This document shows positions 4,567 to 64,000 of a stretch of DNA of 64,000 nucleotides, in pieces (the first letter of the stretch is position 1; every line of letters begins with the position of its first letter). Source of the DNA: Sabellastarte sp. h YS-2021 (taxonomy: Eukaryota; Annelida; Polychaeta; Sabellida; Sabellidae); assembly GCA_964017235.1 (NCBI GenBank), contig OZ024931.1, positions 103,930,221 to 103,994,220 on the forward strand, read 5' to 3'. The notes under the pieces are model-generated. The model was not told the DNA's origin and did no database searches. It was given only the letters and a program-made list of their open reading frames with translations. A program made the position numbers and the translations under genes.

Positions 4567-5432
4567 TTGGTGACTTTTTAAAACACCTTTAATTTATTAT
4601 CAAATCCGTTTAAAAGCCTCGTCATACTTATGTGGGTGTTCCACCACACGACTAAGGCTCCCGATTAAGGGTTTTTGAGGGTCGGTTTCAAAAATATGCT
4701 TAGTCCCAGGCTTCCTGTAAGGGTCGGTTGTGGTCGGTTGAGGCCGTGTGAGAAATCAAACATGTTTGATATTTCTCCCGACCTCAACCGATTATTTTTT
4801 CCCGCCATAAACAAAATGTCCAGTCCCAGGCTTCCTCAGGCCTCCTCAGATCAAATTTTGACAGTCCTATGCTGTCCCAGGCCGCCTGCGACCCTTAGTC
4901 GCCGACCCTTTTTCCCAGACCCTCTATTCTTAGTCCCAGGCTTCCTGCGACCCTTAGTCCCATTGCAAAGCAAAAATCGGCTATCTCGGTCTGGGGACGC
5001 CTGGGGACGCCTCAGGACACCTTGTGGGGTCGGGACTTAATCCTGGGTTAGTCGGGGCTTAGTCCCAGGAGGCCTGAGGCGTCCTGGGACCCAGTCGGTT
5101 TGTCTACGACAGGATCGTGGTTCAAACCGACCAGAAAAATGGCTTAGTCTGTTCTTAGTCCCAGACCAGTTAGGGACTGTCTGGGGCCTCCTGGGGCGTC
5201 CTGAGGCCGATCTGTAGTTAATCCCAGACCTTCATACCGATTCTGTCTTCCACCCCATTGGTCAATTTTTTTTCCATTTTTTCCAAGACTACCCACGATT
5301 AAGGGTCGCCGACAGGATCAGGGCTTAATCCTTTGGTGGAACAAGGGCATTACACGTATATAAACAAAATCTGCAAACGTATCTTGTTTAGCCTTGACTT
5401 TTCAACCTCAACCACCCAGTTATTTTGTCCGC
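4567..5432 (+). repeat. DIRS-type end repeat, split by an inserted MITE-like element
   Basis: The outer parts (4567-4638 and about 5343-5432) resemble the uninterrupted sequence at 5926-6062. Shared landmarks are TGGTGACTTTTTAAAA at the left and GTTT..CC..TTGAC..TCAACC at the right. Similar tail wording (GTAAATAAA..CACAAAC, then GTTTGACC-like words) follows the recombinase of the 63 kb copy on the other strand, and a looser version follows the 9-14 kb copy. I therefore infer terminal or internal repeat sequence of DIRS elements. The middle is a separate insertion, listed on its own. Confidence 0.55.
4638..5342. mobile_element. GC-rich MITE-like element with terminal inverted repeats and many TTAGTCCCAGG words
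   Basis: The ends are inverted: TTCCACCACACGACTAAG at 4639-4656 pairs with the reverse complement of GGCTTAATCCTTTGGTGGAA at 5322-5341. The interior is strikingly GC-rich for this window. It repeats the word CTTAGTCCCAGGC(T) near 4699, 4820, 4930, 5058 and 5155, mixed with inverted forms such as CCTGGGGACGCCT and CCTGAGG. No protein is encoded; the open frame at 4675-5040 follows the repeat words. The target-site duplication is not clear, so the exact ends are uncertain by a few bases. A non-autonomous DNA transposon is the likeliest reading. Confidence 0.6.
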
Positions 5433-8757: not shown

Positions 8758-9039
8758 GGAAAGGCATATCATAGAATGGGGTGAAAAGTTTGGGGATATG
8801 ACCGCCTGGGGTCATAACTCTCAGTTCTGGCACCAGACCATTAAGATGCATTGTGGGAGGTTACGGTTAATAGATTTTGGTATAAAAGCCAGTCTTTGTG
8901 TGGATTTGGCGCCACACTCATTTGAATTTCATGGAAGCCACTTGTTTTGAACTGAGCTTCGTTTTATAAGTTTTATATTTTTAGTATTTTATCTTTTACA
9001 TGTTTTAAACTTTTGTATTTGCTCAGTTCAACAAACAAA

Positions 9040-10038
9040 ATGCCTAAAGTGTTTCACTGCTCCAAATGCCAAGAGGAACATGCTCGTCCGGTGGGAAAGA
9101 AATGCATGAAGACAGCAGGTGAGTCCTTTTCTAGTGCTGACCCTTTGCCTGCACCCCCCTCCCCTGGCGATGACATTACGGTTTCTGATCAGATTCTGTT
9201 ACAATTACACAAAATTGGCGAGAAAATGGAGGCCATGGACAGGAGGGTGCAGCGCACAGAAGCTGCACTTGAACAGGGTAGCTCACACGTAAGTCTGCCT
9301 GGCACTTCCCAAGTTCAATCACAGTATGATACAGTTTCACCCGGTACCGATACGGAACTGGCTTCTTCTCAGAGTGTGGTCCCCTCAATGTCGTTCTTGA
9401 GGACTAATGAATCCATACAGCATGAGGTTGAGAAACGCTTGACAGAATTACGCCATCTTAACGAATCAGCCAGTAAAGGTAGGGTCAAATCACAGAGAGG
9501 CGGTCCTGGCGAAATTTTTGTCAAAAAATCAGTAGATTGGCCACAACATTTCATACTAACAGGCACACACAAAACTCGTCCTAGTTACGACGATTTGACC
9601 ATCACCCAATGGGTTTCCGGATTCGTACGGTGTATGCAAGAGGAAAAGTCTGAACAGAATAGAACATGTATGCTGGACTACTTAGGCAATATTATGGAGG
9701 ACGCCTCTGACTTTGCATGGGATTCGGCTAAAGCCTGTCATGCTGTTATTTTAACCAACATGGAGGCTGATAGGCTTAACTGGACTGATACTGATAAGAT
9801 TGATCGGATACGTCGTGCCCATGCCCAAAGGCATACTTCTGTCAAACCTCTACCTCACGCTCAACGGTTAAGAAGCAAAAAACTTCTTACTCTAAGAATG
9901 GGGTTACTTGCAGGTACTTCCAGGAAGGTACCTGCAAGTACCCCACACACCACAACACAGCTGGTCAGTTTTTTAGACATGTGTGTGGTAACTGTGACGG
10001 TACACATACCACAAAGTCTTGCACTCAGAAAATTGTAG
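9040..10038 (+). CDS. Gag-like protein of DIRS copy 3
   Basis: The frame opens with a compact Cys/His motif (FHCSKCQEEHARPVGKKC) seen in first-frame proteins of DIRS-type elements. A Ser/Pro-rich linker follows, then a heptad-like Gln/Arg helix near residues 55-85 that could form a coiled coil, then a charged region. The Met at 9040 is preferred over the one at 9013 because the Cys motif follows it directly. The role as nucleic-acid-binding structural protein is inferred from position and motif, not from a clear family match. It belongs to a fossil element. Confidence 0.6.
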   Translation: MPKVFHCSKCQEEHARPVGKKCMKTAGESFSSADPLPAPPSPGDDITVSDQILLQLHKIGEKMEAMDRRVQRTEAALEQGSSHVSLPGTSQVQSQYDTVSPGTDTELASSQSVVPSMSFLRTNESIQHEVEKRLTELRHLNESASKGRVKSQRGGPGEIFVKKSVDWPQHFILTGTHKTRPSYDDLTITQWVSGFVRCMQEEKSEQNRTCMLDYLGNIMEDASDFAWDSAKACHAVILTNMEADRLNWTDTDKIDRIRRAHAQRHTSVKPLPHAQRLRSKKLLTLRMGLLAGTSRKVPASTPHTTTQLVSFLDMCVVTVTVHIPQSLALRKL

Positions 10039-11290
10039 CAAAAAACTGAGTAACCACTGCAGTAATGCAGTGGCTCAAAAAGTAGGTAAAATTGTACATA
10101 AAAGTAGGTGTATATATAATTCTAATTTTCATGACAATCATTTGTTTGAGATACAGTATGTCAATAGGTTGATGTCAGTGTACAAGGTAACTAAACCTCT
10201 AGTTTCTTATTCTGACATAGTAAAACGTGGCAGTGTTGCCAATGCCAAAAAATGTAAACCACAAGCCGTCACTGGTAATGTAGCCAAAATGGTTGGTGGC
10301 AAAAATTTACAGGTTTATGGTAAACACAGAGGTGTCAAAAAATCAAATCAGCGTGACAACACGCATACAAGTGTTAAAACATATTGTCAAGATGTCAATA
10401 TGGGCAATATGGGCTCACATCATACAATGAAACGTAGTGAACAAAGTCAAGGTGTTCACAATGTAGTTCATACGAACAGGTTTGCAATATTAGCTGAGGC
10501 AAATGCATGTAATGGTGTTGAAAGTAACTCTAACGATAGTGTCTTTGTAGAATTAAATGATGCAACAACTAGTAAAGGTGTGAATCTGGAAACTGTGAGT
10601 CAAAATGCTCATAAAGGTAAGAATGCCTCTTATTCTATAAATAAGACAGTCTTATTCGAAGAAATTCATGCATCAACTCCACCATGTTACACCAACAAAC
10701 TCGATTATGACTCAAATAGCCCTTGTTCTCCATCACATACAACTTCTGATGTAAAAAGTGAAGAGTGTCCGCGCCGGGTTCACATAGGTGATACGACCAA
10801 TTCTATACTGGGTGCTGTTGACAAATATTCGCTCGAGATGCACAGCAGTTGTGAGAAGTATTGCATGCGGGAGGCTAGAGGGGCCAAACAAAATAAAATA
10901 TTGCTGGCACAGAATAAACCACTGTTCGGCTTTATTCCTACTTATGGGTTACAAAGCCGTGTATATGACACAAATATAAATGAAGAAAGTACTGATCTAT
11001 TGCAGTTACATTCAAAGCTTAGGAGCGATGGTAGACACAATTACAGAGGGTTGCAAATACCTGTTCCTTCAAAATTAAACTCCCGGAAGTGGGAGGAGTA
11101 TTTGGTTGATTATTGGGACTGGGAACTTCCCATGCTCATTAAGTACGGATTCCCTCTTGATTTTAATAGAGAAACTGTGATCAGTACTGAGAAGATTAAT
11201 CATAAAAGTGCCTTACAATTTCCTAGCCATGTTGACACATATCTAGCCGAAGAAACTGAACATGGTGCCATGGGGGGGTCCTTACGCTGA
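10019..11290 (+). CDS. Middle frame of DIRS copy 3, RT-leading region at its end
   Basis: Most of this 423-codon frame is low-information, Ser/Asn/Lys-rich sequence with no domain I recognise. Its last about 75 residues (around DYWDWELP, YGFPLDF, then HKSALQFPSHVD) resemble the conserved stretch that precedes the RT core in DIRS polyproteins. It overlaps its neighbours by short stretches at both ends. I leave open whether that is the natural arrangement. Confidence 0.55.
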   Translation: MHSENCSKKLSNHCSNAVAQKVGKIVHKSRCIYNSNFHDNHLFEIQYVNRLMSVYKVTKPLVSYSDIVKRGSVANAKKCKPQAVTGNVAKMVGGKNLQVYGKHRGVKKSNQRDNTHTSVKTYCQDVNMGNMGSHHTMKRSEQSQGVHNVVHTNRFAILAEANACNGVESNSNDSVFVELNDATTSKGVNLETVSQNAHKGKNASYSINKTVLFEEIHASTPPCYTNKLDYDSNSPCSPSHTTSDVKSEECPRRVHIGDTTNSILGAVDKYSLEMHSSCEKYCMREARGAKQNKILLAQNKPLFGFIPTYGLQSRVYDTNINEESTDLLQLHSKLRSDGRHNYRGLQIPVPSKLNSRKWEEYLVDYWDWELPMLIKYGFPLDFNRETVISTEKINHKSALQFPSHVDTYLAEETEHGAMGGSLR

Positions 11291-12626
11291 CCCACCTATA
11301 CAGAACTTGCACATCAGCCCCTTTATGACCAGGGATAAGTCCAGCTCGGACAAACGTCAGGTTATTATGGATTTGAGCTGGCCCAAGGGCCAATCAGTGA
11401 ACTCAGGTGCTGAGTTAGATAAATACTTAGGCACACAGTTCGTTTTGACTTACCCATCGGTGGATAACATAACTGATCAGGTTTTACAACTAGGTAGGGG
11501 TTGTCATATATTCAAAGTCGATATTAGTCGCACATTTCGACATGTTCCCATTGATCCTGGGGATTTGGACCTTTTGGGCCTCCATTGGGGCCAGTATTAT
11601 ATCGATTTTTCGCTGCCGTTCGGCCTAAAACACGGTTCTTTGATTTTTCAACGATTATCCGATGCAGTTCGCTATATCATGAAACAGGAAGGTCACCAAA
11701 TTTTGAACTATATTGATGATTTTTTGTGTGTGGCCTTACCCTCAAAAATACAACACTCATTTGCTCGCCTCCAAAACCTCCTTCAGGAACTAGGCCTTAC
11801 TATTAGCCAGAAAAAGCTAGTGGCCCCTAGTACCAAGGTAGTATGCTTGGGTATCCTTGTAAACACAGAAGACTGTTCTGTTTCTATACCTGACGAAAAA
11901 TTAAGTTCCATTAAACAAATGTGTGCACAATGGTCCAGAAAATTGACCTGTACCAAAAAAGAGTTACAGTCACTTCTAGGCTCTCTATTGTACATAGCCA
12001 AATGTATCAAATATGCCAGATTTTTCTTGAATAGAATGCTCAGCTTATTGCGTGAACATTACTCTGAAAGTATTATTCAACTAAATCAGGAGTTTCACAA
12101 AGATCTGAAATGGTTTAATACCTTTTTATCCGTGTATAATGGTGTCTCATTCTTTCAATATCCCTATACAAAAACTGTACATCTAGATGCCTGTACAACA
12201 GGCCTGGGTGCTATCTATGAAAATCAGGTGTATGCATTACAGCTTCCCAATAACTGGTCACAACATAACATAGCACAACTAGAAATGATAAATATCTTAG
12301 TGGCACTAAAAGTTTGGCACAACCAATGGGCTGGCCAAAGAGTGGTCATAAATTGTGACAACCAGGCGGTAGTGGCAGTTCTAACCAATGGCAGGTCACG
12401 TGATGTAGTACTGGCCAAATATGCCAGAAATATTTTTATGTGGCTGAGTACATGTAACATAGATATGAAGGTTGTCCATATTGCAGGCAAGAAGAATTCC
12501 ATAGCTGACCTTTTATCTAGGTGGTTTACTGTAGCTAATAACGTTCAAAAATTACAACAGCTAGTTCATCCTGTGACCTGGATCCATACCAGCCAAGAAT
12601 TGCTGACTACTCATGATGGAATCTAA
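11262..12626 (+). CDS. Reverse transcriptase and RNase H of DIRS copy 3
   Basis: RT blocks appear in the DIRS order: DLSWPKGQSVN near residue 45, FKVDISRTFRH near 85, the LPFGLKHGS/QRLSDAV block near 125, and the catalytic YIDDF near 150. The RNase H half follows, with HLDACTTGLGA near 310, an E within QLEMINILVAL, NCDNQAVVAV and VHIAGKKNSIADLLSR. Function by family: copies the element RNA into DNA and removes the RNA strand. Similar blocks in copies 1 and 2 allow direct comparison. It is part of a fossil element. Confidence 0.88.
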   Translation: MVPWGGPYADPPIQNLHISPFMTRDKSSSDKRQVIMDLSWPKGQSVNSGAELDKYLGTQFVLTYPSVDNITDQVLQLGRGCHIFKVDISRTFRHVPIDPGDLDLLGLHWGQYYIDFSLPFGLKHGSLIFQRLSDAVRYIMKQEGHQILNYIDDFLCVALPSKIQHSFARLQNLLQELGLTISQKKLVAPSTKVVCLGILVNTEDCSVSIPDEKLSSIKQMCAQWSRKLTCTKKELQSLLGSLLYIAKCIKYARFFLNRMLSLLREHYSESIIQLNQEFHKDLKWFNTFLSVYNGVSFFQYPYTKTVHLDACTTGLGAIYENQVYALQLPNNWSQHNIAQLEMINILVALKVWHNQWAGQRVVINCDNQAVVAVLTNGRSRDVVLAKYARNIFMWLSTCNIDMKVVHIAGKKNSIADLLSRWFTVANNVQKLQQLVHPVTWIHTSQELLTTHDGI

Positions 12627-12685
12627 TAAGTGCAATTGTACTAATTGCTATGTGTTGTACATTGTAAATTGTAGGATTACAGCCT

Positions 12686-13657
12686 GTGGCAAGACACTTG
12701 ACGTTGTTGGCTACTTCCAGATTGTCACAAGCCTTTTGTGAGTCAACAAAGAGAGCTTATGCTGCCTTATTTCGTGTATTCCTAGCTTTTGTTACTTTCA
12801 TGAGCTGGGAATTGAATCAGGTGAATGTGTTTAATCTGCTTTGCTTTCTGGAATGTCTACATTTTAATGGTGTAAAAGTGTCACAAATGGCTAATTATCT
12901 GTCAGCCATAAAGTCAACGTTTATCATTTATGGTCTTGATGTGTCTTGTTTCACAGACCAAAGGTTAAAATTGTATCAGAGGGCAGTACAAATCCATGCC
13001 CCCCTTGCAGTTAAGCTTAATAAAATCATTGATATTGCTCTGTTAAAACAAATAGTTCACCAGTGTGATTTAACTTACATGGGCCAAATTTTTAAAGCAG
13101 TTTATCTTCTCAGTTTCTTCTCATTTCTGAGACTCTCTAACTTAGTTCCCCACTGTGTTGGGGCCTTCTCACCCCTCAGGCATCTAGCCAGAGGGGATTT
13201 AATTTTCAAACCCGAGAAGGTCATAATAATGATCAAGTGGTCAAAGACCATGCAGAAAAGCAATCAGTTGAAACTCATCTCTATACCTAGGCTTGCAAAG
13301 TCACCTATCTGTCCAGTCCGTGCATTGTCAAATGCCTTGGCCTTAACCCCAAGAGGGTCCAATTTGCCCCTATTTCAGGTCAAATCAAACACTGATTGGA
13401 TTCCACTTACTGATACCAAAGTTAGAAGGCACCTGTCCCTAGTTTTATCTAATCTTGGGTTATCAGGTGCTGGTTTCACCTTCCACACCTTCAGACGTTC
13501 AGGTGCCACCTTTGCTTTTAACAATAATGTCCAAATTCAAAATATTCAGAAACATGGCACCTGGACGTCTGACTGTGTGTGGAGGTATATTACAGATAGT
13601 ACTGATGCTGGTGACCAGGTTGCCAAGATGTTTCGTGAAAAATTGTCTGTCTCCTAG
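12686..13657 (+). CDS. Tyrosine recombinase of DIRS copy 3
   Basis: A 323-codon frame with an N-terminal SAM-like helical half (blocks around LSRLSQAFCES and NYLSAIKSTF). The catalytic half follows: an Arg-bearing block (SFFSFLRLSNLVPH), the HTFRRSGATFAF box (His-x-x-Arg), HGTW, and the late Tyr in CVWRYI. Known: DIRS elements integrate through this phage-integrase-like enzyme and so leave no classical target duplication. This arrangement, downstream of RT/RNase H on the same strand, fits DIRS elements. It is part of a fossil element. Confidence 0.88.
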   Translation: MARHLTLLATSRLSQAFCESTKRAYAALFRVFLAFVTFMSWELNQVNVFNLLCFLECLHFNGVKVSQMANYLSAIKSTFIIYGLDVSCFTDQRLKLYQRAVQIHAPLAVKLNKIIDIALLKQIVHQCDLTYMGQIFKAVYLLSFFSFLRLSNLVPHCVGAFSPLRHLARGDLIFKPEKVIIMIKWSKTMQKSNQLKLISIPRLAKSPICPVRALSNALALTPRGSNLPLFQVKSNTDWIPLTDTKVRRHLSLVLSNLGLSGAGFTFHTFRRSGATFAFNNNVQIQNIQKHGTWTSDCVWRYITDSTDAGDQVAKMFREKLSVS

Positions 13658-20334: not shown

Positions 20335-21573
20335 TTAGACACACGTGTCTGAGTAACTGCTGGATTTGTGTCCTTCCTCAAAATTAGAGATATTAGCGTA
20401 GAGGTTGTAGTAGTGATGTCCATTTCCATTTCCGAGAGGCTGTAGAGTTTGATTGGGATGAGATTGGTGGGATTGTGAGGACTTGGTAAAGGTAAACCTC
20501 TGCACTGGTCTGGGTTGGACGTTACGACAGAGTATCGCCCTTTGAAAGCCTCTGCGAAAGTTGGCAGAGAGAAAGGCATATATGATAGGATTGACTGCAC
20601 TATTTCCATATGATAATGCGTGTGCAAAGAGTCTGATATAAAAGAAGGTGTACGTTTTGTTAATGGAGTCTGGATAGAAATTGGTCCAGATCCATATGAC
20701 ATGGTTCGGCAGCCAGGACAAACAGAACACAATCACTACCACGATGATGAGCCGTGTCACTTTACGCTTTCTGTTGATGGACTCTTTCATACGGGGCCCT
20801 TCTGGCTGCTTGGTCAGCCACAGCTGTCTTATAATGAGTATACTGAGCAGTAGGATGGTAAGAGACGGCAGGACATATCCTAGAATGAACAACACCAGAA
20901 AGTAGATCTTCCTGTGACCAACCATGCTCCAGTCATCATAGCAAGATGGACCAAACAGGTCCACCAGGTGAACATTGTAGACAATTGGTTGTGGTAGCGC
21001 AATGGCTAGAGCAACCAACCAGATTACACAGGATGTAATGAAAGCAATGAGTGGTGTACGCAGGTGCTTGGTTTCAAGTGAGAAGGCCAATGCTAGATAT
21101 CGATCTGCCGCCATGGCCACCAGTGTCAGAATGCTCGCTACCATACTGGAATACTGCACTAGATGCACAAATTTACACATGAATGTCCCGAACGGCCATG
21201 GGATGGTGTAGATGATAGCATGGAAAGGTACACAAAAAACTAAAAACAGTAGATCCGCAATAGAGAGATTTAAGATGAAGAGGTTTGTGGTATTCCGGAA
21301 ATGATCACGATTTCTGATGACTACTATTATCACGATGATATTTCCTATACAACCGAAAAAGACAATTAAGGAGGAGATCACTGGTATGATTATACCTTCC
21401 AGGCCTGGCTTCCAGTCCATTGCTTCACTCTCCATCATAGCACTGAGGTTAGGCTGTATGCTATCCATCACCAGGTCACCTGGTGTTACTGTGGGGATAT
21501 TGTCCAAATCCCCTCCACTCTGATTCTGCTCCAGGATTAGCTTCATCGTGCTTACACTATCATTTCCAGACAT
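20335..21573 (-). CDS. Galanin/allatostatin-A-type neuropeptide receptor (class A GPCR)
   Basis: A 412-residue seven-transmembrane receptor in one open exon. The N-terminus (1-58) has N-glycosylation sites at N4, N17 and N42. Helices lie at about 59-86, 95-120, 130-156, 172-193, 221-248, 270-298 and 309-335. Hallmarks: LNLSIADLL with Asp107 in TM2; Cys133 and Cys211 for the extracellular disulfide; DRY at 157-159; FCLSWLPNH in TM6 (Pro289); NPIIY at 328-332; and Cys349 as a possible palmitoylation site. The TTNLFILNL and FAHALSYGNSAVNP wording is closest to galanin type 2 and allatostatin-A receptors, so the likely ligand is a neuropeptide of that group, usually coupled to Gi/o. The start is supported by an in-frame TGA at 21595-21597, eight codons upstream; Met10 is an alternative. 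No frameshift or stop is seen. It stands alone among repeats. Galanin versus allatostatin-A assignment is not decided. Confidence 0.93.
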   Translation of the reverse strand: MSGNDSVSTMKLILEQNQSGGDLDNIPTVTPGDLVMDSIQPNLSAMMESEAMDWKPGLEGIIIPVISSLIVFFGCIGNIIVIIVVIRNRDHFRNTTNLFILNLSIADLLFLVFCVPFHAIIYTIPWPFGTFMCKFVHLVQYSSMVASILTLVAMAADRYLALAFSLETKHLRTPLIAFITSCVIWLVALAIALPQPIVYNVHLVDLFGPSCYDDWSMVGHRKIYFLVLFILGYVLPSLTILLLSILIIRQLWLTKQPEGPRMKESINRKRKVTRLIIVVVIVFCLSWLPNHVIWIWTNFYPDSINKTYTFFYIRLFAHALSYGNSAVNPIIYAFLSANFRRGFQRAILCRNVQPRPVQRFTFTKSSQSHQSHPNQTLQPLGNGNGHHYYNLYANISNFEEGHKSSSYSDTCV

Positions 21574-40800: not shown

Positions 40801-42542
40801 ACGACAATGTTTTTGGAAAGTCTTAAGCAGGAAAGTCACAGCTCAAAGTCTCAAAATTAAGGTGACATTTTTAATCCCACATGTTGTCATATGTTAGTTT
40901 TTGCTATTATTCTTTCCCTTTTTTGGTCTTAATGTACACCTAATAAGGCAAACAACAAAATAGAGTGAGAACATAAAAATTGCTGTAATTATCATACTTT
41001 AATTTACTCTGTATATGAACAGATTATTTAATCATTTTAATTTATGTTACTATTGCCATAAGTTAGATGATTTTTTTTAATCCTCCACCAGTGACATGAG
41101 AGCAAACGTGTACACTACTGGTGCGCTAGTATTTTTCACAGTTTCTTAAAACACAGTAGGTTTAAGTAAATCTTTAAATACTTTTTTTGCTAAAAGAATT
41201 CTGTAGAAAAAACAGTGTCTTGGTCAGAAACACAGAAGTTATACATCTGTGATGCTCTGGGAAGGAAATAAAAAAATTCCTAAAAGGAAACTACACTGAT
41301 TGATCAAACTGTTGTTTCTGTACCAGTGAGGCTCACACATGGGTTATTAATAATTTATAAAGTAAATTAGTTTGAAATTGGGGCATCCATGTGGTGGCTT
41401 CAACAGTATTATGATGTGAGATGCATGTACATTACAAGAACAGATGATTCCTTCAACATAAGCTGTAAAAGAATATTTCCATTTCAGTTCTTTGCCTCCA
41501 GATACAAGTACAATGTACATTAATATACAAAAATAGTTCACACAGTACATGTGGTATTAATTACTATGTCAATTGTATGGTTTTGCGACTTAAAGTAATG
41601 CTACAATAAACTTGTACAATAACCCATTTACTGACTCTGATGATCCTTTTATGTTTTATTTTGGTTCGGGGTTGCAATAAAATCGTGTCTTTTGATCTGG
41701 AGTACATACAATCCATTGCCCTATAGAAATATGTAACAAATGTAGTAGTTAAACAACGAATCTGCTTATGGCTATTTTCAAGTTATCAGTATACAATTTT
41801 TAAATGTTTAAATTCTGATGAAGTATCCATCTATTATTTTCAAATTAATATAACTTAATATAACTTATGTTGTTTAGTGTAATACATTAAAAGTTTGTGT
41901 CACTCTTTTACACAAAAAATACATAGAGATTTGGAGTTTCGGTGTTTTGGTGTTAACTATGGAACATATTAATATTCATACATTCACACTAATTTCTGTG
42001 GATATCAGATGATGCTTTTTTTTAGAAAAATAGATAAAAGAGAGTTAGTTACAGAGGATGGAAGAGTATATAAAAATTGCTCAAAGGCTAGAGGTTTAGA
42101 AAACGAAACAAATATATATGTAGCTGATTGGGTTAATAAATGGCAAGCTTTTGTGTGACCAAAATGTCAATTGTTTATCATTTGTGACCTGATTGGATTT
42201 GAAAATTGACTCAAGATACTAAATATATGCGCCAGATTTGACAGAGCCTTATGAAAAGGCTTAGCATTGAAAAGAAATAATTGTTATTTATTTTTGGTAC
42301 TTTAACCATTATTTATATGTACTTTTCATTCACAGTTTTATTGGAAATTACTTCTCTCAACTCTTTAGAAAAGTGACAAAAAGCCTAACAAGTAGGGCAA
42401 AATGTCTTTGAATAGTTTCATATTTTATTGTATATTCTATAGAATTGTACAAAGTAGAAACTAGTTGTGTTAACAGGTGTGTAACTTTATCATAACACAT
42501 ATAACATATAAATTAAAACTTGTTGAAGATTATATGTGTATA
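37836..42542. other. Long AT-rich interval without a recognisable gene
   Basis: Frames up to 112 codons occur (for example 38379-38717) but none carries a domain, and none has composition different from the background. I see no tRNA, SINE head or inverted-repeat element. Confidence 0.5.
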
Positions 42543-42666
42543 TGTTACAGGCAATCTGTGTAACCAGACATTACGCGTAATGACTGAACATTTCAGTCAT
42601 TTCGCGAAATGCCTAAACTGTTTAGGCATTTCGCGAAATAGCTAGGCATTACGCGTAATGACTGAA
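42543..42666 (+). repeat. Left terminal inverted repeat with four CpG palindromes
   Basis: TTACGCGTAA at 42571-42580 and 42649-42658, and TTTCGCGAAA at 42600-42609 and 42629-42638. Measured from the outer end these start 28, 57, 86 and 106 bases in. The right arm has exactly the same order and offsets. Such regular sites are good candidates for transposase binding (inference). Confidence 0.88.
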
Positions 42667-42736
42667 ATATAAGGTTCAGTATTACACAGATTGCCTAAAC
42701 AAACATTGAAGGTTTCAGGCAATCTGTGTAATCATC
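42667..42736. repeat. Extra copies of the terminal motif next to the left arm
   Basis: ATTACACAGATTGCCT (42681-42696) is the terminal motif facing left, and AGGCAATCTGTGTAAT (42717-42732) is the same motif facing right again, 20 bases apart. Together with the outer end this gives a right-left-right series. Positions 42549-42696 would by themselves form a foldback MITE of about 148 bases. Confidence 0.75.
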
Positions 42737-43645
42737 TTTTTAATAATACAATATTGTTTTTCTCTCTTTTTACAGATATTTAATGTTGTATTTGGTGTAT
42801 TATTGTATGGAAATGCCAAAAGTGTTAGTATTTTACTTTTCAGTAACATGCTATTGTTTTTTTCTCTCATAAAAGACATTCAGAATGCTCTTACAATCAA
42901 ATGGTAATCTGTTGACTATATGGTGACATTGTATATTGTATGTTTTTCCTATGATTTTGTTTTTATGTTCTCATGACAACAATGCATATGCAGATATGTG
43001 ACAACTTTTCCTGCTAATTTTAATAGATGTATTTAATGTTGCATTTGCTATAGTTTGAAGGTGGACACATAAAATAATAGAATTAATTAAAATATATAAA
43101 GTATAACAGCTGCAGTCCTTGAAGTATTCAAAAGTATTCAAAAGTATTTCAAAAGTATTTATTTTTAAAAAATTTTAAAACAAATGCTGAAATCTTTTCT
43201 TTGATGTTAATTCTGTCACTGTGTCACAAGGCTGACTGCAATTAAGACTCCCCAATAAGTTGTGTGATCATTGGGTTAGCTAATCATACTGAATAGAGGC
43301 TCCCAGATGAAAGGTTCTTGATAAAACCTTTGATGTTAATCCTGTCTGGTGTAATAACTGCAATCAGGCTATTGTAATCCTTCCATTTTTTATTGCCTGA
43401 GCAATAAATTAGTGGAGTTCTCTAGACAATGGTACCCTAGATGAATGGTACTTGCATCTTTGATCCCTGACAATCACAAGATACTTTTGAAAACACAGAT
43501 GAAAGGTATTATTGAGTTATAACTCACTCCTGAGTACTATTTTGTCTTTAAATATCACTGCAGTTGTCTTGACAAACCATATTGGCTTACAAACTATTGA
43601 TAAGCACATTGGCAGATTCTTTCATTTTCAAGATGGCAGAAAGTT

Positions 43646-44597
43646 TTGAAGACAGATTTAAAAATGGACATTTTCCTTCTGATGGGTGCTCCGTCCATAC
43701 TACAGAGTGATAACGGCAGTGAGTTTACTGCAGAGGTGATCCGTGAATTGAAAGTTGTGTGGCTGCGTCTTGTGATGGTCCATGGAAAACCCAGACACCC
43801 CCCAGAGCCAAGGGTCAGTGGAGCGCGCAAATGGGGACATCAAGGATATGCTTGTTGCATGGATGGCAGATAACAACACAAATGATTGGTCAGTTGGAAT
43901 CAAGTTTGTACAATTCCTGAAAAACTCAAGCTTACATTCTGGTATCCAAAGATCACCATATAGTGCTCTGTTTGGATGTGATGCCAAAGTTGGTCTAACA
44001 ACATCTTCCCTACCAGAAGAGATCCTGGAAAGGATGCACAGCGAAGAAGATCTGCTGACAGCCTTCGCTACTTCAAATGCTGTCCCTGTAGAGAATGGTT
44101 CTACTGAAACAGAATCAGCCACTGAAGTTGAACCCACACCAGGCCCCAGCTTTGTGGAACTCTCCAGTCCAACCCATGATGACAGCCTTCAGGTGTTTTC
44201 CTCTGAAGAGACTCTGATCAGGTGTGATGATATGCCACTCCTCACCCCAGTTCGCCATGCTTCTGCCTCTGTCACTGAATATGATGAGCCACCAATCATG
44301 AGTCCCATTGTGACTGCAGCAGATCTTCTCAATGCAAGGCAAAACAACATTCTGGCTGAGAGAAATGCTGCCAATTCCTCGCAAGTCAATCAAGCTGAAA
44401 GAATGGTGAAAAGAAGTAGGCTTCATCTACCACCTGGGCAACCTGGAGACACTGTGGCAGTCCCCATCCCACTTGTGGACAGGGGCCGAGGTGATCCAAG
44501 AAACCTTCTTGGGATCATTCTCAACCGTGATGACAATGACCTGTACACGATTTGTGTCAGTTCAGGGATCTTAAAGTCTTACCAGGAATCAATTTGA
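43646..44597 (+). pseudogene. Ginger-type integrase, C-terminal half
   Basis: The region encodes LQSDNGSEFTAEVIRELK (second catalytic Asp of the DDE core) at about 43700-43760. After a change of frame it encodes HPQSQGSVERANGD-like sequence bearing the catalytic Glu (SVERANGD; frame 43782-44597, 271 codons). That frame continues through the SPYSALFGCDAKVG block into an acidic, Ser/Thr-rich linker and an LHLPPGQPGDTVAVP block with a GRGDPRNLLG element. By family, the enzyme cuts and joins transposon ends. The first catalytic Asp is not seen, so it is inactive as it stands. The frame change falls in a C-run near 43797-43803. Confidence 0.8.
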
Positions 44598-44616
44598 CCT
44601 ATGCCAACAAGCTATC

Positions 44617-44820
44617 TTGAAAGAAACTGATGTCAACAAAACCCGTACCATTACTCTACGTGCTGCTGTTGGTGAAGAGTCTGCCTCTGGTGGACAGGGT
44701 TATGTGAAGTGTAACTGTTTTGGATGCAAAAAATGTGAAACAAACAGATGCAAGTGTTACAAAAGTAAGCTCAAGTGTTCAAGTCATTGCCACAGTGGAC
44801 TCTCATGTAAAAATAAGTAG
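44617..44820 (+). pseudogene. Cys-rich C-terminal motif of the Ginger-type protein
   Basis: A 67-codon frame ending GQGYVKCNCFGCKK, then NRCKCYKSKLKCSSHCH and SLSCKN. The run of about twelve Cys plus His pairs resembles the Cys-rich tail of KRBA2-like and Ginger proteins, thought to bind zinc. It follows the integrase frame by 19 bases in another frame and was probably once continuous with it. Confidence 0.72.
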
Positions 44821-44950
44821 TTCCTTTCAGTAGTTAATAATGCTTTTGCTTTAATTAGTTTTCAATTTTGTCGTTTTTGAATGTATTTTATATTTATGTA
44901 TGATTTATATGTGTACACTGACACATTTTAATTGTTGTCATTAAAAGTTC

Positions 44951-44956
44951 AATAAA
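44951..44956 (+). terminator. Polyadenylation signal of the Ginger-type gene
   Basis: AATAAA lies about 130 bases after the Cys-rich frame and still inside the transposon, as expected for a transposase 3' UTR. Confidence 0.55.
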
Positions 44957-45103
44957 AGTGATAAAATACAAGTTTTGCTGTTGCTCTTCATTAATGGAAT
45001 AGCTGGTATATGCTCAAAACCTATCACAAGCAAGCTTATCAGTGTATTATACCAAGACACGGGTACCTTTCTGTCATATTTGATACAAAAGTATGTTCAG
45101 GCA

Positions 45104-45252
45104 TTACGCGTAATGCCTAGAGCTCACTTTTAGCCATTACGCGTAATGCCTAGCTGTTTCGCGAAATGCCTGAACAGTTTAGGCATTTCGCGAAATGACT
45201 GAAATGTTCAGGCATTACGCGTAATGCCTGGTTACACAGATTGCCTGTAACA
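45104..45252 (-). repeat. Right terminal inverted repeat with five CpG palindromes
   Basis: From the outer end inward: TTACGCGTAA (45215-45224), TTTCGCGAAA (45186-45195 and 45157-45166), TTACGCGTAA (45137-45146), plus a fifth TTACGCGTAA (45104-45113) with no partner in the left arm. Several sit inside perfect 20-base palindromes such as AGGCATTACGCGTAATGCCT. Confidence 0.88.
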
Positions 45253-46456
45253 TATATAAGATACAATAACACATAAAACACCGCACACAGTATTACTGTT
45301 TGTTCACCCACAGTAGGTCAGGTGATTTGTGAGTTCTCTAGATCAATATGGGGTTGGGGGTTTCAAAGCTGCATGTTCAAATGAAACAAAGGCTTCTGTT
45401 TCTTCCTGTTTATCACTCAGTGCTTGATTAGGTGTTAATTAAGGGAAACATTAATTCACCTTCTGAATAGAAATGGTTACATTCTCTGAGAATAATCTCC
45501 TAAAGATTCCACATGACACAAGAAGTAACAATCTAATGAGGTTTTCAGTTTCACTGAGAGAGCTGCCACTAATGTATATAACCTAAGAGCATGTCATACT
45601 TCTCCGTCCACACACTACAGTTAAAACCCATGTCACATTGTTATAGGTGTAATTCCGTCCCCATATGTAGTGCAATGATTGAAAATGTGGTGGGTTGAGA
45701 TTCATTCTTGAAGCTGCCAAAATTATTATGACACACCTCAAGGGGGACATTTTGGGGTCAACTGCTGCCATGTCCATGTTTTCACTACTTGACGACCCTA
45801 TATCTCTCACATTTGGGATATATAGTGTTATTGAGTAGGTCAAACCTTTCCTGCCAGTCGAATCAGTATTTATTTGATTTCAATTTGACGACCTTGTCCT
45901 TGTGACCCAGGAAATAGACCTTGTATGTTGACAGTACATATTGACCAATGAGCCACCATATGTGTCCATCACCCCTTTACACCTCTAGCATGTACAGTGC
46001 AGTACAGCCCATGATCAATTATTGGAGGTTTTTCAAACACTTTCAAAAAGTGGTATTAAGCACAAAATGTGTTCAATGTTATATTGGATCTCCCCTGAAA
46101 GTATTCCACCAAAAATGTCAATCCCAGCAAATGCATCCTTCCAAAATAAGAAAGTTCCTATTTGGTTGTAGCTCAATACTCTGACACAGAAAGGTGTGAC
46201 CTGGGTATTACAGCTTAAATACATTAAAATATGTGCATATACCCTCAGTTTTCTGCATTGTTTTGGTCTTGGTTCCAGTCTGCTACAAGTGAACCGGCTC
46301 ATCTACTTTTATTTCTGGTTCAATTCCCTTTGTACTTTTTGCTTTGTATTTTGGTAGGACATCTTGTTGGGACTTGCATTTGGGTCTGAAGTCTTTGTTG
46401 TCATTTCACACAACTTGGAAAGTGTTTTGTTTTTGTACCTCTTTTATTAAATGATT
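45253..46456. other. Interval without a recognisable gene
   Basis: Short overlapping frames on both strands only. No domain or repeat can be named. Confidence 0.5.
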
Positions 46457-47339: not shown

Positions 47340-48149
47340 TCAAGCACCACGGAGAACACCAGGGGATGATCCAGACTTAGGTGGGTATACTTTGTTGTAC
47401 AGGTAGGTTTTAAACTGCTTTCTGAAAGAGGCCAAGGATGGAGAGGCACGAATCTCATCTGGAAGAGCATTCCACACAGTGGGAGCATCAAAAGCAAAAC
47501 TATAACCAAACTGTTTGATAGATTTATGCACAGAAGGGTAGAACTTTGGAATGACAAGGAAATTGCCACCACTTTGGCTGCGCCTGGTGCTGTAAGAACT
47601 GGTGTAAGAAGAAAGATATGGAGCAAAATATCTAGGAAACCCTGTGTGTGGAAACTTGTAAACAAGTGTGGCTGTCTTAAAAACCATGCACTTTTCAACA
47701 GGAAGCCAATGCAATTTCTTAAGCACAGGAGTTATACTGGTGTATCGACTGGTGTTAGATACAATTCTGGCTGCACTATTTTGGATGCACTGTAAGTTGC
47801 ATAGATTGAACTTAGAGAGGCTCCTGAAAAGTGAGTTGCAGTAATCCAACCGACTAATAAAAAGAGCATTAGCCACAAGTACAGAAACATCATGAGTAAG
47901 AAACCGCCTGACATGTCTGAAATCACAGAGTTTGACAAAACAACTTTTGCAGACATTCTGAACGTGCTTAGACAAGGAAACATCTGAATCGAACCACACA
48001 CCCAAATTCCTGACTGAGTCAACAGGGCAAAGTGGACTACCCAAGGTATCAATTGGAAAACAAGCTTTCAGCTTGTCCCTCTGTCTCTTCGAACCAAAGA
48101 TGATAAACTCAGTCTTGTCGGGATTCAGTTTGAGCTTGCTAGTAGACAT
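47340..48149 (-). pseudogene. C-terminal part of the subfamily A LINE reverse transcriptase
   Basis: A 269-codon open stretch. It starts in the RT thumb region (STSKLKLNPDKTEFIIFGS, VRNLGVWFDSD), continues through SRLDYCNSLFRSLSKFN, then NSAARIV and KKLHWLPV, and ends with the FRKQFKTYLY block common in CR1/L2 proteins. It is part of the larger element, not a free gene. The Met at 48149 is not a natural start; the protein would have continued upstream. Confidence 0.85.
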
Positions 48150-50082
48150 CCACTCTGTAACATCATTAACATCAACCTGTTCAGTTGTTCAAAGGCAGCA
48201 GATGCATTCTTCTGGGATAAATGGACATAAACTTGGCTGTCGTCTGCATAAAAATGAAACTTTATTCCTTTATGTTTACCAATAATCAAGCTGAGGGGGG
48301 TGGTGTACAATAAAACAACAAAGGGCCCAGGACCGAACCTTGGGGTACGCCAAATAGGACTTTACAAACATTTGACAAAGTAGAACCAATTTTTATTGAC
48401 TGATAATGGTCTGTCAGGTAGGAAGTGAAACATTTCAGAACAGAGCCACCGACGCTGAACCAAATATGGAGGCAACTGGGAAGAGTGGAATGATCTATGG
48501 TTATCAAAGGCGGCAGACATGTCTAGCAATACTAAGGCAGTGGGTTCACCTCTTGACAAAGATAAGTGAACTTCGTTTTTTTTTTAGAAAAGAGCTGTCT
48601 CTGTTAAGTGACCTGCTTTATATGCCAACTGGTACGGGTTGTCTAAGTTATGGACATGGATATGTTCTAACAGCTGCTTAGCAACCACACGTTCTACCAA
48701 TTTAGATATGAAACTGAGACCAGATACAGGGCGATAATTCTTGAGGTCGTCAGAAGGACGATTTGCCTTTTTAATAAGAGGAGTGACTACAGCAGTTTTG
48801 AAAGCATCAGGAACACATCCCTCCATGAGCGAACAATTGACCAGCTTAGTAAGAGATGGTAGCAATATATCAATGCATTTGTTGATAAGAAATATTGGCC
48901 AAGGATCTAACAGGCAGGATTTTGTTGGTGAGGATTTAATTATTTTACCGACATCATCTTCAGAAACTTGCCTAAAGACAGTAATTTTTGGAGGATCTGA
49001 TGGAGGGTGAACCTCATTTTCAGTGCCAGATGGAGCAAAAGTATCTTTAATTTTCTTGATTTTGTTTGAAAAAAGGAGACAAACTGGTCAGCCAATGACT
49101 TTTCAGACTCATGCGATGGAAGTGTCCCATCAGAGACCCTGTTCAAGGTTTTATGCAGCTCACGCCATAGTTTTCTGGAATCATGACTATCAGTTTGCTG
49201 TAATAGTCGGACTTATCATTGTTTACAAGTGCATATACAAGTGCATTGAAGCCAACTTCTGTTCAGTGGATTTTTGGCCCTACACCAAGTTCTCTCAAAT
49301 TGGCGCCTAAGGGACTTTGCACGTCGATAAGCATCAGATATCCAATCCGCAGAATATTTCTTTGTCAGTCTAGATATGAGAGGTGCATGCCTGTCAAGAA
49401 TATTGCCTAAATCATGTACATATTGTTCATAAAAATCAACTACAGCATCAGCAGGGGACTTAATGAAGGAAGTATTTTTGAGATCTGAGCGGAAATCAGT
49501 CATGTTGATATGGTGGTACCTTCTGTATTGAACTTTACTTTGAATATGAGCTACTTGATGAGGGAAGGCAATTAAGCATTTGACTAATGCATGATCAGAT
49601 ACAAAATCGCAAATTTTGATATCAACAATAGCATCCTGATCACTGGGAGATAGAATGAGGTCAAATATGTGGCCGTGCAGATGAGTAGGTTGATTGACTA
49701 ACTGTGTCAGATCACATGAATCAAGACAGGTCATAAATTTATAACTGTCACCAACTGGAACATCAACATGAATATTGAAATCACCACAGATATAATATGA
49801 AGAGTTAATAGATGACAGGAAACCAACAAATGACATGAATTCTTCGTAGATTTAGGCAAGCAACACTGAACGGCCATGAAGCCCAATTGACACAACCATA
49901 TTCTCAAATGACTGGTAGAGGGGAGATTCAATTTTATTGTGTCTATAGGAGGATCTAATGAAAAAAACAACACCACCACCAATACCTGAGGAATGAGGCC
50001 TGTGAGGAAAAATAAAATCAAGAGGAGTTATAGACCATCTAAAGCTGGATGAATCAAAGGGTTGAATATGGGTCTCCATAAT

Positions 50083-57455: not shown

Positions 57456-59885
57456 GATTGATTGGCTTCTGAATTCAAATCTGTGGTTGATGCCTGCAGT
57501 TTGACCCAATATGTAGACCTAACCATCTTCACGGTACTTTGGACTTGCTTCTTGCTCCTACAGAATTTTCATCTTATCAGAGGTGAACGGTTAATGCTTC
57601 ATCAGCGATCATAAAATTGTTTCTTGCCTAGTTGATTTTCCGTCTGTGGCAAACCATCAGGATAGAATAGTAACCTTATGTCAATATCACAAAATTAATG
57701 TTGATAGACTTAAGAAAGATCTAACGGCCTCTGCATTTCTTGCCTCTTCATCAGATGAGCTTGACACACTCTATGAACAATAAGTCTCTAGCCTGTCAAA
57801 TCTGGATATTAATGCTCCCTTGAAAACTAGGTGTTTCACCAAACCTGCAAACAAACCCACAGGAAACTGTACCAGGCTTAGATGGCAAATAAATAGATGT
57901 AACCATCTACTGAACAAAAATAAGGGGCAATACTATCAGGAGTTAGTCTAAAAGAATAGTTTAGATGACAAGAAGTTGTGGCGAGTATTGAGCAAGGTGT
58001 TGAGTAGTTCCCAGGTCTCTACCCTCCCATCTTGTACTGATGAAAAATCACTGGCTAATCAGTTTGTTACATTTTTCATAGACAAAATTAGAAACACTTT
58101 CAGAAATTGCACATCAAAGTGTGTCCCATTTGAAAAGAAACCACCCTCTTTCAGTTCATTCCAGTTGGTCTCTGAAAGTGAAAGTCCTTAAGTTCATTAA
58201 GGAATCCCGAACAAAAACATGCTCTTTAGACCCTTGGCCCACATTCCTGGTTAAAAGCTGTATTGACATTTTCATTCCATCATTAACTAAACTGATCAAT
58301 TTATCTCTCCAACAAGGTGTGTTTCCAAAACCTTTCAAAATATGCCATAGTTACACCTCTTATCAAGAAGACCTCTCTGCCCAAGGAGGCCCTCTAGAAC
58401 TATCGACCTCTCCGGGCTTAATTTTCTATCAAAACTGGTGGAGCATATAGTTGCTGCTCAAATAAGGTCTCACATTGACTCGAATGATCCTGGAAACACA
58501 TTCCAGTCAGCCTATAAAGCTGGACACTCAATGAAAACTTCCCTGTTGTGTATTCAGAATGAGATACACTTGTCGTTGTCCACGGGCATGCCCACAGCCC
58601 TGGTCCTCCTTGACCTATCGACCGCCTTGACACCATCGACCATGACACACTTCTGAGTTGCCTACTGACAACGTTTCACTTTACTGGCACTGTCCTTAGG
58701 TGGTTTTCCACATATCTCCTGGATCGTTCTTCATCTGTCAAAATTGGCTTAGTGATCTCCGAATGTTTCAAACTTAATTTGGGGGTACCCCAGGGCTCTG
58801 TTCTTGGTCCCTTGTTGTTCTCCCTATACACCTCCCCCTTAGTCTGGTAATTGCTAAATATTTGGATTTCAAATACCATTTTTATGCCGATGATTCCGAG
58901 TTGTACATCCATCTATTGTGCAAAATTACTTCATCAGATGAAGGCCTGTTTGAATGACATCCACACCTGGATGCTTGAAAATAAGCTTAACTTAAATCCC
59001 AAGAAAACAAAGTTTATAGTCTTTGGTTCTATGGATAAGTATAAATGGCTCAAAGCTCTTTCGCTGTGAACATTTTGGGTAACTGTCTCTCCCCAACAGA
59101 TGTTGTTCGTAATCTGGGTGTATTGTTTGACTCTAAATTTAGTTTTACCAATCATGTAAATTCTGTCATTAAATCCTGTTTTGCTAACTTTCGAGATTTT
59201 CATCATATTCAACGCTTCCTCTCATATGACAGTCATGGTATCAAATGCATTGGTCAGTAGTTCTTTGGATTATTGCAATTCTTTGTTTCGCAGTTTGTCC
59301 TTCAAGAATATCACAAGGCTTCAGAATTTCCAAAATTCTTTAGCACATATTGTCTCTGGTGCCTCCAGATTTTCTGACATCACTCCAGCATTAAAGTCTC
59401 TCCACTGGCTTCCTGTTAAACAATGTATCATTTTCAAAACTTTGGTACTAATACATAAGTACCTTACCATTGGCAAGCCAAATACTTTGCTCCTTATTCG
59501 TCTTTATATACATCTGCTGTTAAAACAAGATGTAGTAATCCAGAAAAGATGTTTCTCAAAATTCCCTTCTACATCTCTTCAGTTCATAAATCTAATATTC
59601 ATTTCAATAAGTGTTTCTTATATGCTACTCTTAAACTTTGGAATGATTTGCCACTGGAAATTCAAACTGCTCCTACACTATCATGTTCCAAAAGACGACT
59701 TAAAACTTTTCTGTTTCAGAAATCTTTTCCTCCCTAGGTTTTCTTACTACTGAACACCAATAGTCCACTGGTGATGACCTTATTATGTTTTACAACTTAT
59801 GATTTATGCATTATGATTTGGATGGTGTGCTTTAGAATCCGCGAGATAGGAGATTAAGCACTTGGATATCTGATACCTGATGTGG
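57456..59885 (+). mobile_element. CR1/L2-group LINE, subfamily A-like, 5'-truncated
   Basis: Starts within the endonuclease (SLTQYVD, then a THLHGTLDLLLAP-like block, 57490-57560). The linker follows (DINAPLKTR near 57810), then RT blocks: CSLDPWPTFL near 58220, FQSAYKAGHS near 58500, ALVLLDLSTA near 58600, LGVPQGSVLGPLL near 58780, the catalytic FYADDSE near 58880, LNPKKTKFIVFG near 58990, NLGVLFDSKF near 59115 and LDYCNSLFRSLS near 59265. The end is AGGAGATTAAGCACTTGG, close to the 47.2 kb copy. The missing 5' end is typical of incomplete reverse transcription. Several frame changes and stops make it inactive. Confidence 0.87.
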
Positions 59886-63055: not shown

Positions 63056-64000
63056 AGAGGTCAAAGTAAAATAAGGTCAAAGGTCAAATGGGAATGAAGA
63101 TAGGTCAAATCAGTTTGTGACATTTTATTTACACATTAGTAAAAGATATAAGCATAAAAGAGGGGTTAAAACCTTTAAATTTTTCAAATTATTTTGTAAA
63201 TTTAAAGCCCAAACCCAACTAAAGTCGAGGAGGGATGATGGAAGCGAAGGTGGAGGAATAGAAGGTGCCAGAGAGGCGTTCTGGAGGTATGTCCAAACTG
63301 CCGAGCTCCTCCAGAGGCCATGGGCCATGATTTGCTGTAACTGGACATTATTGTCAAAAGCCAGGGTAGCTCCAGATCGCCGAAAAGCATGAAAACCATG
63401 ACCAATCAATGGTACACCAATCTGTTGCAAAACCTTCCTAAGGGCATCCCTAATGGTGGTATCTATAACTGGATGAAAGGGGGAAAAGAATGAACGAACA
63501 GGGGTGAAGATGGTGAAAAAGATATGGAATCTAAGAGTTTCCTTAAAGCCAGAACTGGGCAAAGTGTAGTATTCTGAAGAACTGGAATCTGGACAAAATG
63601 GTGAGCCAAAGTATCCTGTAAAGTTTTGGTCCATTTTATTAAAATGTGAGCCCCAGGTTCAGCAAAAATTATGTCTCGCCTCAAGAAATGTCTTTGCTTA
63701 TCAAATTTGAATCTTGAATGAGGTGCAATGTTAGACATTCTTAGGAAAGCAAAGAAAGCTAACAGGAAAATTGCCCGAAATAATGGTGGATCAGACAGGA
63801 TATCACATGCTTGAGATATTAAAGCCAAAGTTGTGAGATCAAAAATGCCCCTAGGGGTTGGGGCAAATCTGGTGTTAATAGAAATGCTCCTGAGATATTC
63901 TGAAACTAGTCTGTGTGAAAGGACCTCTGGATGTCACTGATATTTGATTGCCGCTTTCTTAATAGATGAGACATAATTCAAAATAACCTTGTGTGAAACA
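63056..64000 (-). mobile_element. DIRS-type retroelement, copy 4, recombinase end, leaves the window
   Basis: Read on the minus strand, the tyrosine-recombinase catalytic half lies at about 63200-63830. It includes FFAFLRMSNIAPHS, HAFRRSGATLAFDNN, AHGLWRSSAVWTYL with the late Tyr, and a Pro/Ser-rich ending. The tail after it (GTAAATAAAATGTCACAAAC, then repeated TTTGACC words, 63056-63130) resembles the DIRS-type end repeats at 4.6-6.1 kb. RT and gag, if present, lie beyond position 64000. It is a fossil with at least two breaks in the visible part. The closest relative here is copy 2. Confidence 0.85.

Follow-up and report, generated by a model that had tools for sequence, protein, structure and literature searches.

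A 64,000-nucleotide stretch of the annelid Sabellastarte sp. h YS-2021 (contig OZ024931.1, positions 103,930,221 to 103,994,220; here called the window) contains, at 42543-45252, a transposon whose two terminal inverted repeats (TIRs) carry CpG-containing palindromes at the same distances from both outer ends. What are these palindromes, and which protein, if any, would read them? The original prediction, made from the letters of the window alone, had proposed an ordered array of sites in a Ginger-like element, bound by a dimeric transposase or a host factor and possibly sensitive to methylation. The element belongs to the Ginger2/TDD cut-and-paste transposons, as a non-autonomous copy, and comparison with its relatives in the 1.786 Gb host genome, the single source of all families considered here, makes it likely that its arms are ordered arrays of sites, with a fixed register and with words that are specific to each family, at which the element's own integrase-like transposase is predicted to bind.

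The 10-mers TTACGCGTAA, TTTCGCGAAA, TTTCGCGAAA and TTACGCGTAA lie at offsets 28, 57, 86 and 106 from base 42543, and the identical four recur at these distances when counted inward from base 45252, with a fifth in the right arm at 139, just as originally described; they share the 10-mer TTWCGCGWAA. Expressed as a palindrome score (half-width letters out of 10, with 8/10 or more considered high), high scores are reached by only a fraction of 0.00088 of the 63,512 centres in the window that lie outside the arms, and the nine palindromes in the two arms are therefore not due to chance. The coincidence of offsets between the two arms is not independent evidence, because the arms are 95% complementary; TIR symmetry is nevertheless rejected as a full account, since it holds within one element but the register is also kept between families. 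That several sites extend to perfect 20-base palindromes, as had been claimed, is true of two of the nine (45099-45118, 20 bp; 45209-45230, 22 bp), while six of the other seven reach 12-14 bp and one falls under the 12-bp cut. Similarly, the claim that spacing is kept amid differing flanking bases fails within the window and holds between families. The sites are arranged as follows.

42549..42558, forward strand: left tip half-site AGGCAATCTG, offset 6-15
42566..42585, forward strand: left palindrome 1, ACGCGT core, offset 23-42, centre 32.5
42595..42614, forward strand: left palindrome 2, TCGCGA core, offset 52-71
42624..42643, forward strand: left palindrome 3, TCGCGA core, offset 81-100
42644..42663, forward strand: left palindrome 4, ACGCGT core, offset 101-120
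42682..42696, reverse strand: inverted tip copy TTACACAGATTGCCT, left arm only, where palindrome 5 would sit (offset 139)
42717..42731, forward strand: direct tip copy AGGCAATCTGTGTAA, left arm only, offset 174
45099..45118, reverse strand: right palindrome 5, perfect across 20 bp, offset 134-153
45132..45151, reverse strand: right palindrome 4
45152..45171, reverse strand: right palindrome 3
45181..45200, reverse strand: right palindrome 2
45210..45229, reverse strand: right palindrome 1, perfect across 22 bp (45209-45230)
45237..45246, reverse strand: right tip half-site AGGCAATCTG, offset 6-15

Are these offsets kept across copies, the check that the original prediction itself had suggested? 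A search of the genome with the left arm gave 40 full-length matches among the 40 candidates scored (2221 at first look), the window's own included. A pattern consisting of the tip and two 10-mers, with each gap left free across 31 values, matched 567 times, the reversed pattern 0 times, and among the matches listed the offsets were exactly 28 and 57 in 92 of 100. Paired 10-mers 5-35 bp apart matched 1476 times (reversed pattern, 0), with a spacing of 29 in 45, 33 in 4 and 28 in 1 of the 50 pairs listed. Since these patterns themselves contain the array, a fairer test is provided by the opposite arms of the left-arm loci, which were absent from the query: allowing for changes of CpG to TpG or CpA, 28/57/86 is kept in 13 of 14, locus L003 being the sole exception. 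At offset 106, CGCG is present in 3 of the 36 unique arms of family A and is replaced by CACG or CATG in 24, a change consistent with CpG decay. The kept offsets support the proposed ordered array of sites, with a dimeric transposase as its likely reader.

Unexpectedly, the layout is also kept in families that do not share the word. Loci picked solely by transposase similarity gave tips with other palindromes in the same register, and twelve Ginger2 tip families were distinguished in all; the B word came from a separate source of copies (the array search). In all twelve, a 10-bp half-site at offset 6 is repeated at 23 and followed by its mirror image at 33 (at 34 in K and M), in the sense that at least one arm per family carries the word or a near copy at 23 and the mirror at 33/34. 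Families A-J have further palindromes inward, approximately 29 bp apart, with steps mostly of 28-33 bp and odd single steps of 20 in A and of 39-40 in F and H. The words, together with the fraction of unique arms that have a high-scoring palindrome centred at 32.5, are listed below.

A: AGGCATTACG, 34/36
B: AGTCATTACG, 10/11
C: AGTAATTTCG or AGGGATTTCG, 2/3
D: AGGCATTTCG, 1/2
E: AGTAAATACG, 3/3
F: GCCCATTTCG, 2/2
G: GTCCATTTCG, 3/3
H: GTACAAGTTA, 4/4
I: GTTGAATGTA, 4/4
J: AGGGAWTTCG, 3/3
K: GACAGAATTT
M: AGGCGGATTT

Between clades the word is completely replaced (AGGCATTACG, GTACAAGTTA, GTTGAATGTA, GACAGAATTT, AGGCGGATTT), and the seven transposases compared, covering 7 of the 12 families, are 27-65% identical. 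The 71 unique arms remain from 89 after merging those that share the flank and the first 100 bases. The A and B arms among them were in part selected by the array (L001-L030 by left-arm similarity, L031-L045 by two 10-mers); the C-I arms and one third of those of J come from transposase-chosen loci, and K and M were added later, outside the 71. In 66 of the 71, the first palindrome has its centre at 32.5 and scores at least 8/10, to be compared with the background rate given above, and this fixed centre rules out simple tandem repetition with free phase.

The tip is part of the same pattern. Its copy of the word at offset 6 has 1-4 of 10 letters altered (6 in G), and the mean identity to the family's own word across the 12 families is 7.58/10 at this offset vs 1.5-3.3 at offsets 0-5 and 7-15, while identity to the mirror word peaks at offset 33, at 8.42. 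Comparing each tip word with its own palindrome word, 91 of 120 letters agree, against a shuffled mean of 51.9 and 0 of 50,000 shuffles. When the comparison is reduced to six clade representatives, only the identity permutation (1/720) attains the observed sum, in 12 of 12 choices of representatives; the clades were grouped by us according to word.

The layout can also be used without reference to any word. We scanned a word-free layout score over 29 transposase 3' flanks, which had been picked on protein similarity, taking as the tip a TG after TATA or after a 3-of-4 match to it (CATA in L052 and L064; TATG in L065). The tip was the single best position in 17 of the 29 flanks and tied for best in L057, L064 and L067. 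For flanks that had been viewed previously it was single or joint best in 15 of 20, and for those fetched later in 5 of 9, all single best. Among background blocks, which hold about 9 TATA-like TG sites each, the best position fell on such a site in 0 of 80. Taken together, the comparisons suggest that the word co-evolves with the transposase on a fixed register. We further lean towards the view that Ginger2 ends follow a fixed positional code (6, 23, mirror at 33/34, then palindromes about 29 bp apart), in which each family has its own word and tip and array change in lockstep with the transposase, so that one animal genome would hold a dozen mutually distinct transposase-end pairs, produced by wholesale replacement of words with the architecture kept.

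A number of observations weigh against this interpretation. The whole comparison rests on one genome, and 20 of the 29 flanks were already in view when the register was learned, ahead of the score. Nine of the 29 flanks are failures of the word-free scan: L070 has the palindrome at 32.5 and a weak tip, in L053 the array is shifted by 3 bp, and in L051, L055, L069, L077, L080, L081 and L082 the layout was not recognised, although F-type palindromes lie in L080 (one) and L081 (two, spaced by 29 bp), both without a tip, and L077 has the tip TGTCACAGTGG directly after TATA, plus other palindromes. Background blocks do reach layout scores of 16 and 17 (2 of 80 at 15 or more). K and M hold 6/23/34, but their inner palindromes follow a different pattern, without 29-bp steps. 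Words inside the AG clade are related and hence not independent, the tip of family G agrees with its own word in only 4/10 letters, and some C copies are mismatched, with the tip word AGTAA and the palindrome word AGGGA. Finally, inward copying of the tip, as seen at 139 and 174, could alone produce the likeness between tip and array.

The left arm of the window element is not empty at 139: TTACACAGATTGCCT is the element's own tip, inverted. In families A and B one arm has two additional copies of the tip, an inverted one at 139 or 148 and a direct one at 174; at the matching place the opposite arm usually has a fifth palindrome, which may be decayed or shifted. The tip copies are confined to exactly one arm in each of 14 complete elements, 11 of which were found using a tip-copy-bearing arm as query. 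By eye, the direct copy tracks the family word, with AGGCA in the window and L042 and AGTCA in L031.

One could speculate that such copying reflects neutral growth of the array, in which slippage, hairpin repair or gene conversion placed copies of the tip further inward, so that the likeness is mutational and without function. The tip copies found in one arm of A and B elements (139 and 174), the variable length of the array between copies and the tail-to-tail TIRs in L049 would all fit. This leaves unexplained, however, why unrelated words stand at 6, 23 and 33 in clades without shared sequence, and why the inner sites are palindromes and the tip only half of one, and we regard neutral growth as an improbable account. 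A role as structural signals, in which single strands of DNA or RNA fold at the palindromes into hairpins or cruciforms and the palindromes are not protein-binding words, might be indicated by the long perfect palindromes, such as one of 32 bp in L048; the palindromes nevertheless run centre to centre without a loop, many sites are imperfect mid-palindrome (CACG, CGTG), and the lone tip half-site is unable to fold and its word is still kept, all of which makes folding very improbable.

The retention of CpG raises the separate issue of methylation and host factors. As originally noted, CpG words survive in the arms: the observed/expected ratio is 1.55 in the left arm and 1.33 in the right, whereas the interior of the element has lost CpG (0.20; window, 0.34). 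The words of families H (GTACAAGTTA) and I (GTTGAATGTA) contain no CpG, and their layout is unchanged; CpG is thus a trait of some families and not essential, and the idea that the array exists for the sake of CpG or methylation is rejected. The retained CpG of the window arms could also be read as a sign that the palindromes are bound by a protein of the host, be it a transcription factor or a factor sensitive to methyl-CpG, which would control the promoter of the transposase or silence the element; TTTCGCGAAA and ACGCGT also resemble known host motifs (E2F/BANP-like and MluI-box words). A host reader is disfavoured, however, because the word differs wholly among the families of one host while the layout, and with it the register to the cut site, stays constant; the CpG-free words of H and I speak against it as well, as does the retention of the array in copies that, at 885-1672 bp, cannot accommodate a complete transposase gene. 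We consider this explanation, like neutral growth, unlikely.

If the arrays are indeed read by the transposase, a simple arrangement can be envisaged. Two transposase subunits would dock at each palindrome, a 20-bp palindrome being a natural site for such a pair; they would do so by means of a DNA-binding domain, for which the conserved cysteine-rich domain at the C-terminus is a possible candidate. The catalytic subunit would occupy the lone tip half-site and thereby set the cut at TGTNR, and the inner palindromes would load extra subunits and assist the pairing of the two ends. A joint change of tip and array word would then restrict each transposase to its own ends. The C-terminal domain has seven invariant Cys and one His across 7 aligned families and weakly resembles CXC domains, with weak profile matches to TCR (4 of 7 tails, best E 0.0016) and preSET_CXC (3 of 7, best E 0.0033). 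A profile of the tails found no match in PDB at E up to 1, and a single-sequence model of the tail (mean predicted local distance difference test score, 69) gave no fold match.

The assignment of the element as Ginger-like is supported and can be narrowed to Ginger2, on the basis of its TGTTA ends, TATA duplication, RTATAY target and integrase-type transposase. In the parts of Bao, Kapitonov and Jurka (2010, PMC2836005) consulted, Ginger2/TDD is defined by TGTNR ends, a 4-bp duplication and an RTATAY target. The window element begins with TGTTACAGGC and finishes with GCCTGTAACA; including the duplications, its arms (42539-42667 and 45128-45256) are 95% complementary across 129 nt. The transposase of this copy is frameshifted and lacks the first catalytic D. 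Its features are the following.

42539..42542: target-site duplication TATA, left; target GTATAT, matching RTATAY
42543..42667, forward strand: left TIR, first bases TGTTACAGGC, 95% complementary with 45128-45252
43633..43665, forward strand: relic of transposase exon 1 (MAESFEDRFKN), fused by a deletion to the middle of the catalytic domain, by eye against L046
43646..43873, forward strand: integrase core fragment carrying the second catalytic D (LQSDNGSEF), rve E 0.028
43782..44597, forward strand: transposase fragment carrying the catalytic E (PQSQGSVERAN)
44617..44820, forward strand: C-terminal cysteine-rich (CXC-like) domain of the transposase, in a different frame
45128..45252, reverse strand: right TIR
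45253..45256: target-site duplication TATA, right

The relatives agree with this picture. The 4-bp duplication (TATA) is identical on both flanks in 13 of 14 complete A/B elements as well as in the window copy, and the targets of these complete elements (n = 14) are RTATAY. TATA precedes 66 of the 71 unique arms, and the base ahead of it is A in 44 and G in 22. Tips in the 12 families are TGTTA, TGTTG, TGTCA or TGTCG, with single copies of TGCTG (L058) and TGTCT (L079). Among five relatives with long frames, rve was found in all at E 1.7e-4 or better (one reached the curated cut-off) and H2C2 in three (E 0.0051 at most, one of them passing the curated cut-off), the other two having no H2C2 match. 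The D-E spacing is 36 in 6 of 6 transposases, and the sole relative compared with PDB matched PFV integrase at E 1.3e-10. Ginger1 is ruled out by the duplication, which is TATA and not CCGG or CCGT, and also by the domains, since no OTU or Ulp1 protease Pfam match was found in the five relatives at E up to 0.5. A search for transposase relatives found none in viral contigs, and in genome contigs a single bacterial match of 58 residues.

Several further observations were made among the Ginger2 loci. The transposase of family K (L072, L073) is 27-33% identical to the others compared, and the family has many partial matches that are 97-99% identical in protein and one stop-free frame of 676 amino acids; it looks like a recent Ginger2 expansion. 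In the reverse complement of L049, two family-G-like TIRs face each other across TATATA, 6 bp apart (4488 and 4495), and are a second element, or an end, adjoining the first. Downstream of the transposase in L048 lies a perfect 60-bp inverted repeat (3786-3845 and 4068-4127), perhaps the ends of another small element. The 16-bp palindrome ATCAAACATGTTTGAT, which occurs at window 4755-4770 and in the reverse complement of L047 at 1550-1565, may be part of an unrelated repeat.

Elsewhere in the window, a DIRS-like retroelement at 9013-13657 has reverse transcriptase and RNase H at 11262-12626 (RVT_1 E 4e-11) and an open frame at 12686-13657 that is tyrosine recombinase-like by eye and has no Pfam match; similar-looking fragments lie at 3036-3800 and 63125-63634. 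A single open frame of 412 amino acids at 20335-21573 on the reverse strand encodes a receptor of the rhodopsin type (match along the full 7tm_1 profile, E 7.8e-59), is neuropeptide-receptor-like by eye, and is probably a host gene. Frames resembling CR1/Jockey-type LINEs by eye are found at 47340-48149 and 49216-49836 (both reverse) and 59181-59753 (forward), the first two of which gave nothing convincing with Pfam.

Multi-site ends are known from other transposons. The piggyBac transposases form a superfamily unrelated to Ginger2, the P element transposase is of the THAP-domain type, and TnsB of Tn7 has an integrase fold; we know of no set of Tn7-like relatives within a single genome that share a register while their words have been replaced. 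In the portion of PMC11707139 consulted, piggyBac and piggyBat transposases have a conserved cysteine-rich domain at their end, as those of Ginger2 do too, but their 19-bp palindromes are asymmetric relative to the tips and form no periodic array, and, in contrast to them, the Ginger2 tip is half of the array word. The Tn7-like element of PMC10201428, as far as its text was accessed, has a TG terminus and three TnsB sites per end, with unlike left and right ends; the spacing between the first site and the terminal TG, about 8 bp, is critical. The constant offset of 6 in Ginger2 suggests a comparable critical distance, although the Tn7-like element is bacterial and its sites are not called palindromes there. 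The P element, in the part of PMC7776569 consulted, similarly has 10-bp transposase-binding sites inside 31-bp TIRs, but its TIR-to-site spacing is unequal (9 bp left, 21 bp right). Ginger2/TDD as presented in the consulted parts of PMC2836005 resembles the elements here in having an integrase core with H2C2, TIRs within 50-180 bp and non-autonomous copies; those parts describe no site array, fixed register or match between tip and array words, and 'palindrom', 'CGCG' and 'subterminal' occur 0 times in them. Likewise, an array in Ginger elements is undescribed in the accessible portions of the literature searched (including PMC2836005, PMC10045372, PMC9587614, PMC10871703 and PMC5753468), subscription papers, Repbase and supplements aside.

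What, then, does the locus tell us about this family? The arrangement suggests the use of a multi-site end, of the Tn7 or piggyBac kind, by an enzyme that has an integrase fold and is a relative of retroviral integrase, and the layout provides a word-free signature for locating Ginger2 ends. To our knowledge, how a transposase switches its recognition word and yet finds both ends is an open question. Six of the 12 tip families have open transposase frames (537-676 amino acids, stop to stop), and with twelve families on one register the link between protein and DNA word becomes directly testable.
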